Program-made: the position numbers and the translations under genes
Shown here: piece by piece, positions 45,901 through 49,345 of the stretch
How the letters are laid out: each line of letters begins with the position of its first letter
Position numbering within the stretch: position 1 is the first letter of the stretch
Assembly (NCBI RefSeq): GCF_000427095.1
Contig: NC_021487.1
Coordinates: forward strand, 620,001 to 684,000
DNA length: 64,000 nt
Source: Chthonomonas calidirosea T49
GTDB lineage: Bacteria; Armatimonadota; Chthonomonadetes; Chthonomonadales; Chthonomonadaceae
Reading direction: 5' to 3'
The notes under the pieces: model-generated
The model's input: only the letters and a program-made list of their open reading frames with translations
What the model was told of the DNA's origin: nothing
Database searches by the model: none

Positions 45901-46305
45901 CTATTTTTTCCTCTTCGGTAAAACGAGTTTCACGGATGCGGGAGTTTCCCCATCCAACGTCAGCTCTGAGGCACGCTTTCCAATCGACAGCCAGATAAGC
46001 GCGACGATTGTTAACCCCCAAAGCCCCAGCCCATACAAGATACCGAGAAGATAGGGCTGCCAAGGCTCGTGAGGTATCTCCCAATCCACTACCCGCGCGA
46101 TGCAGGCAAGACTTATCAGTGTGGTGCAAAGCGCTACCCACACCGACCAGAAGTAAAACCTTGCGCGCCGCTTGTTCCTCTGATCAACCCCTACGTGATA
46201 AACCAGATGATAATCTATCCGGCAGACCCACTCTCGCACTACTCCCCATAGTACGGAGAGGACGGACAACACGGTCATGGAACAAGCGAACGGCTGTAGA
46301 TGCAT
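45901..46305 (-). CDS. Unknown three-helix membrane protein inside the ribosomal operon
   Basis: The 134-residue protein starts at an ATG with AGGAGAG 7 bases upstream. It has hydrophobic segments at residues about 8-22, 52-70 and 84-107, with a basic loop (QRNKRRARFYF) between the first two and a basic C-terminus (LPKRKK). I do not recognise a family. It lies between rplK and rplA, which are normally adjacent and co-regulated, and seems to be co-transcribed. The spacing (33 bases after rplK and 46 before rplA) argues for a real gene. Confidence 0.75.
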   Translation of the reverse strand: MHLQPFACSMTVLSVLSVLWGVVREWVCRIDYHLVYHVGVDQRNKRRARFYFWSVWVALCTTLISLACIARVVDWEIPHEPWQPYLLGILYGLGLWGLTIVALIWLSIGKRASELTLDGETPASVKLVLPKRKK

Positions 46306-46802: not shown

Positions 46803-47336
46803 TTAATCCAAGCGCTCGATCTGTTGAAAATCTAGCTCGACCGGTGTATCCCGCCCAAAGATGGAGATGAGCACGCGTACCTTTTCCTTATCCGGGTGAA
46901 CCTCCTCAATAGTGCCGGTGAAATCCGCAAACGGCCCGGAAACCACGCGAATCACCTCTCCCTTTTCAAAACGTACCACCGGCGTTGGGGCAGCCCCCTC
47001 GGCTGTATTGAGAAGAGCCTGAACCTCATGCTCTTGAAGCGGTACCGGCTTGCCACCAGGCGGAATAAAATCTATGACGCCCGTTGTAGATTTCACAAGA
47101 TACCAGGTATCGTTATCCAGTACCATCTCTATTAGCACATAGCCTGGATAGAGCTTGCGCTTGACTTCCATCTTCTTTCCGCCCCGCGAGCGAAGCTCGA
47201 CCTCGGTCGGAACCAGAATTCGACCTATTTTGTCGTCGAGATGCATCGACTCAGCTCGGCGCTGAATATTAGTCATCACCTTGTTTTCATGACCGGTGTA
47301 AACATATACCGCGTACCACTGTTTTTGCATAGGCAT
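46803..47336 (-). CDS. nusG: Transcription termination/antitermination factor NusG
   Basis: NusG binds RNA polymerase and couples it to Rho or the ribosome. With the ATG at 47336 the protein has 177 residues: NGN domain (KQWYAVYVYTGHENKV to about 110) and C-terminal KOW domain (GEVIRVVSGPFADFTGTIEEV). The frame continues upstream; another ATG at 47384 overlaps the secE stop as ATGA and would add 16 residues. Neither has a clear ribosome site, so the overlap makes the longer form possible by coupling. Confidence 0.95.
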   Translation of the reverse strand: MPMQKQWYAVYVYTGHENKVMTNIQRRAESMHLDDKIGRILVPTEVELRSRGGKKMEVKRKLYPGYVLIEMVLDNDTWYLVKSTTGVIDFIPPGGKPVPLQEHEVQALLNTAEGAAPTPVVRFEKGEVIRVVSGPFADFTGTIEEVHPDKEKVRVLISIFGRDTPVELDFQQIERLD

Positions 47337-47380
47337 CTGTTGTGTTACAAAAAGGTCACTCTCAAACGCTTCATGGCCTC

Positions 47381-47609
47381 TCATTGTGGCAGAATGTGCT
47401 TTATGAGCCAAGCGAACACGACATTCAAAATCCACATGTAAGCACCAATCACCACGACCACGGCAATCACTTGCCATGTCAGTCGGTTCGCCTGCTGCCA
47501 GCTAGGCCATGTGGTTTTCTTAAGCTCGCTCTTGCCATACCTCACGAATAAACACGATGGGGTTTTGGCTCGATTTAACCACAGAGAGATGCTGTTTCTC
47601 TATCGCCAT
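47381..47609 (-). CDS. secE: Protein translocase subunit SecE, frame interrupted
   Basis: SecE is the essential membrane subunit that clamps SecY. Two frames together make a normal SecE: an ATG at 47609 opens a 29-residue frame containing NPIVFIREVWQE, the usual amphipathic helix, which ends at TAA (47520-47522). The +1 frame continues as ELKKTTWPSWQQANRL, one membrane helix and a stop at 47381-47383. The junction contains GAGCGAGC, a 4-bp tandem duplication; without one copy the reading would be uninterrupted (WQELKKTTWPS). A shorter product could start at the GTG at 47545 (54 residues). It may be a sequencing error, a recent mutation or a real frameshift. Confidence 0.85.
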
Positions 47610-47735: not shown

Positions 47736-47808
47736 CAGGGGCAGAGAGACTCGAACTCCCGACCTGCGGTTTTGGAGACCGCTGCTCTACCAGCTGAGCT
47801 ATACCCCT
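47736..47808 (-). tRNA. tRNA-Trp (CCA)
   Basis: A 73-base cloverleaf on the minus strand: acceptor AGGGGTA/TGCCCCT, D arm with AGCTCAGCTGGTAGAGC, anticodon CCA in the loop TCCAAA, T arm with GTTCGAGTC. It lies upstream of secE, a common arrangement. Confidence 0.97.

Positions 47809-48145: not shown

Positions 48146-49345
<1,200 letters not shown>

Follow-up and report, generated by a model that had tools for sequence, protein, structure and literature searches.

The secE gene of Chthonomonas calidirosea T49 lies on the minus strand of the window (the whole 64,000-base stretch of DNA that was analysed) in the order tuf, rpmG, tRNA-Trp, secE, nusG, rplK, an unnamed membrane-protein-like gene and rplA. 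The nusG, rplK and rplA genes stand on one side of secE and the tRNA-Trp gene on the opposite side (Table 1). Both this gene order and the core sequence agree with those of the SecE (PF00584) encoded in tRNA-Trp-secE-nusG-rplK-rplA clusters, but unlike the cluster SecE of its relatives, the recorded frame in C. calidirosea is broken by what reads as one extra GAGC. The second EF-Tu gene is located at G000:C1:3372433-3373628, and the two 99% identical copies constitute a repeat of ~1.2 kb that starts ~0.6 kb from the break in secE. The unnamed gene between rplK and rplA has relatives in all 17 genomes of the family, its own included, with 26-40% identity in the other 16; in each of these 16 genomes, secE and the relative share a contig and are no more than ~2 kb apart.

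Table 1. Features of the secE region, with positions in the window.
Feature	Position	Strand	Description
secE, 5' part	47520..47609	-	ATG 47609 to TAA 47522-47520; 29 aa in translation
secE, 3' part	47381..47545	-	+1 frame, open from GTG 47545 (54 aa); ends at TGA 47383-47381
4-bp tandem GAGCGAGC	47524..47531	-	gene nt 79-86, at the secE joint
nusG	46803..47330	-	intact, usual downstream neighbour of secE; Pfam NusG and KOW
membrane-protein-like gene	45901..46305	-	134 aa, between rplK and rplA; no Pfam family
tRNA-Trp	47736..47808	-	upstream of secE; ARAGORN
EF-Tu gene	48146..49345	-	second copy elsewhere in the genome, 1196 of 1200 bases matched, 99% identical

The recorded secE gene is divided between two reading frames

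Read on the reverse complement of positions 47381-47609, the first frame of secE consists of 29 sense codons (MAIEKQHLSVVKSSQNPIVFIREVWQERA) followed by the stop codon TAA at codon 30. This 5' part carries the family N-terminus (MAIE...) and the front half of the amphipathic helix (FIREVWQE), whereas the SecE core (ELKKTTWPSWQQANRLTWQ...) and the transmembrane helix are encoded by the 3' part in the +1 frame. The 3' part matched Pfam PF00584 with 54.4 bits (E = 1.2e-14; cut-off 22.7) and covers positions 7-54 of the 55 in the profile, which is nearly the whole core. In the record, no continuous frame places the amphipathic helix ahead of ELKK..WP. The sequence at the joint of the two frames is CAA GAG CGA GCT TAA G, within which GAGCGAGC forms the GAGC tandem. 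The early stop, the continuation of the gene in the +1 frame and the tandem at the joint had been reported in the preliminary description, and all three were confirmed at the positions given in Table 1.

SecE is essential in model bacteria. A second intact secE, which according to the preliminary description would make the break less important, was sought by profile matching across the genome (one contig, 3,437,861 bp) and was not found; the whole genome contains one SecE match, together with a single, intact copy of SecY. Given that SecE shields SecY from FtsH (available text of PMC8082313), the presence of an intact SecY beside this sole SecE match makes a broken secE biologically implausible. 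The amphipathic helix that is interrupted in the record is described in the accessible part of PMC4826270 as lying along the cytoplasmic face and moving as the channel opens.

Relatives encode SecE in one frame

We compared the locus with a set of 60 related genomes, the nearest of which belong to other genera of the same family. The set yielded 57 SecE places from 56 genomes (29 loci and 28 fetched stretches). SecE is a single open frame in all 57 places, with no split in any of them, and the helix residues ahead of ELKK are in frame with the core throughout. Relatives within the family start with MAIE or MAVE, and many run on to FLxETxxELKKTTWPTKxEAxRLT in one frame; the two frames of C. calidirosea secE, placed end to end, match this same pattern. 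The spacing from E to WP, which was counted by a script pattern (by eye for one row, L007), is the usual one in 51 of the 57 places, with one extra residue in four and two extra residues in two. The six places with additional residues are L082, L090, L076, L083, L008 and L080. The statement in the preliminary description that removal of one GAGC restores the exact family spacing therefore holds for the majority of relatives, but the spacing is less uniform than that wording implied.

No SecE match was present in the remaining four of the 60 relatives, three of which are estimated to be >90% complete. True loss of SecE in these four was rejected because NusG was also without a match in the same genomes, and the secE locus is probably missing from their assemblies. 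In one relative of the phylum (G034), two SecE matches were observed on one contig, ~86 kb apart (G034:C20:35972 and G034:C20:122228).

A single additional 4-bp block best accounts for the break

Non-trivial exact 4-bp tandems occur 211 times in the window (0.0033 per base), and GAGCGAGC is the only one between positions 47370 and 47615. The chance of such a tandem falling within the joint region of ~5-9 bases is 2-3% by a post hoc estimate. Deletions of 1, 4 and 7 nt and insertions of 2 nt that leave one open frame (333 candidates giving 190 distinct scored proteins) were scored with a model in which all 57 relative places were included. The top five repairs were 4-nt deletions at the joint, with 74.1-78.3 bits. 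The single-GAGC form ranked third with 77.4 bits; two different 4-nt removals at the joint scored higher, the better one by 0.9 bits, and these were treated as tied. The best 1-nt deletion reached 73.2 bits, so that 4-nt removal at the joint is preferred over any 1-nt removal by a modest margin of about 4 bits. This model replaced an earlier one of 32 sequences, which had been chosen by the usual-spacing pattern and hence favoured 4-nt removal; in that biased model the single-GAGC form ranked first and 4-nt removals were again on top. Spacing alone is no proof of the 4-bp reading, since the margin over 1-nt removal is modest and six of the 57 relative places have extra residues. With spacing and tandem taken together, one extra 4-bp block is the best reading of the break.

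Origin of the additional GAGC

The break in secE is most likely either an error of the record or a recent slippage mutation private to the strain, and not a new way of making SecE; it constitutes no evidence of a new mechanism. Among the four options offered in the preliminary description, these two gained support from a 4-bp tandem that relatives do not share in an otherwise normal gene, while a functional GTG-started form and ribosomal frameshifting were disfavoured. The recognisable conserved N-terminus ahead of the joint suggests that the organism either lacks the duplication or acquired it very recently. We consider it somewhat more probable than not that the extra GAGC is an assembly error which the organism itself does not carry. 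Living cells would then hold one continuous, ordinary secE, and the additional block would have entered the deposited assembly, for example, from finishing or from a mutated template.

Several observations count against an error of the record. The usual error of 454 sequencing concerns homopolymer length and not duplication of a 4-bp tandem. A Pfam-coverage check of 28 proteins besides secE, drawn from the larger set of open reading frames in the window (one of the 28 without a family), revealed that the match to the top family spans 93% or more of the profile in 26 of the 27 family-matched proteins, the exception being a short repeat family; the record near secE is thus not error-ridden. A position of the joint within a repeat was also rejected, as the surrounding 421 bases occur once in the genome. 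An error is favoured, on the other hand, by the essential role and single copy of secE and by its intact frame in all 57 relative places. The T49T strain was sequenced by 454 Titanium and Sanger methods at 20x, and strain TKA4.10 was assembled on the T49T template (available text of PMC4959169). Also in favour of an error, the ~1.2 kb EF-Tu repeat ~0.6 kb away from the joint would be a probable break of the 454 assembly, finished by other means. Among literature on C. calidirosea and frameshifts, the accessible part of PMC4959169 concerns other loci, and a search on secE frameshifts in preprotein translocase returned no paper that by its title concerns a secE frameshift.

The alternative that the duplication is a real, recent slippage event, private to the strain or culture, is possible but less likely. 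The lacI locus offers a comparison: its ancestral state is already a repeat, with three copies of CTGG, whereas secE would have gone from one copy to two. The gain of a 4-bp tandem unit belongs to a known class of spontaneous mutation, exemplified by the gain and loss of CTGG at the lacI repeat, where one unit is likewise gained and the frame lost (available text of PMC3485313). A cell bearing such a mutation in secE could survive on residual SecE through weak initiation at the GTG, through low-level spontaneous frameshifting or as part of a mixed population, and the +1 frame, with this GTG in frame, retains nearly the whole Pfam core. However, the gene is essential in model bacteria and has no second copy, and the GTG is without a ribosome-binding site, with no pairing to the 16S tail (+0.6 kcal/mol).

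That the 54-aa GTG-started protein is the normal SecE and the front 29-aa frame a leftover is improbable. This form keeps the conserved core with the 54.4-bit match given above and can be aligned to solved SecE chains that are 56-65 residues long; the four nearest of these (56 or 65 residues) have 3 to 12 residues ahead of the matched stretch. It loses, however, the front half of the amphipathic helix, which all 57 relative places keep in frame, and in the family model the joined reading scores higher (77.4 bits versus 62.8 bits for the GTG form alone), partly through its greater length. Codon usage gave -1.02 between the GTG and the joint, compared with +1.82 for the ATG frame, although with few codons this is weak; the other two frames of the first part scored -3.81 and -3.36, also on few codons. 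Pairing of the 16S tail at the ATG is itself weak (-3.8, near the 25th percentile for random 20-mers), and nusG shows none (+0.4 and +0.9), which makes the test a weak one. As the example of nusG indicates, a gene of this genome can do without a visible ribosome-binding site.

Programmed or tolerated +1 ribosomal frameshifting that joins the two frames is the least probable of the explanations. The organism does have a classical programmed +1 site (GGGAGGGCATCTTTGAC) in prfB (L099, G000:C1:1846514-1847557), whose first frame runs for 23 codons to TGA with the rest in +1, and secE resembles it in having an early stop and its remainder in the +1 frame. The +1 product of secE would have one extra residue, as do four of the 57 relative places (two more have two), and the RNA of the joint and the region following it is more stably folded than shuffled sequences (z = -2.48; 4 of 200 shuffles as good), which counts against the reading preferred here, although the signal is not specific. 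In contrast to the slippery codon and weak stop of prfB (CTT TGA C), secE has CGA GCT TAA G, and by codon-pairing reasoning the codons before TAA would re-pair poorly one base on (GCT to CTT, CGA to GAG and GAG to AGC). The bases directly before GCT TAA (ATGGCAAGAGCGA) contain no Shine-Dalgarno-like run at the prfB spacing; a Shine-Dalgarno-like GAGGT lies ~13 bases before GCT, which by eye is too far. No very rare codon is present at the joint (CGA, 15% of Arg; GCT, 24% of Ala), and the split is not conserved among relatives. It is very improbable that the duplication is real and fixed, with SecE produced by a +1 frameshift unlike that of prfB or as the helix-truncated 54-aa form and translocon levels hanging on an inefficient event.

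C. calidirosea is a thermophilic hot-soil bacterium from a little-studied phylum. Should the favoured explanation of an assembly error be correct, one correction is due in the genome record of a type strain from this phylum, and reports that a Sec system is incomplete should be checked against such breaks; should the duplication be real, it would provide a natural test of the minimum SecE for a thermophile. SecE and SecG are stated to be absent from Fimbriimonas ginsengisoli in the accessible part of PMC4072686, and the statement on SecE may deserve a re-check, as secE is short and easily missed.
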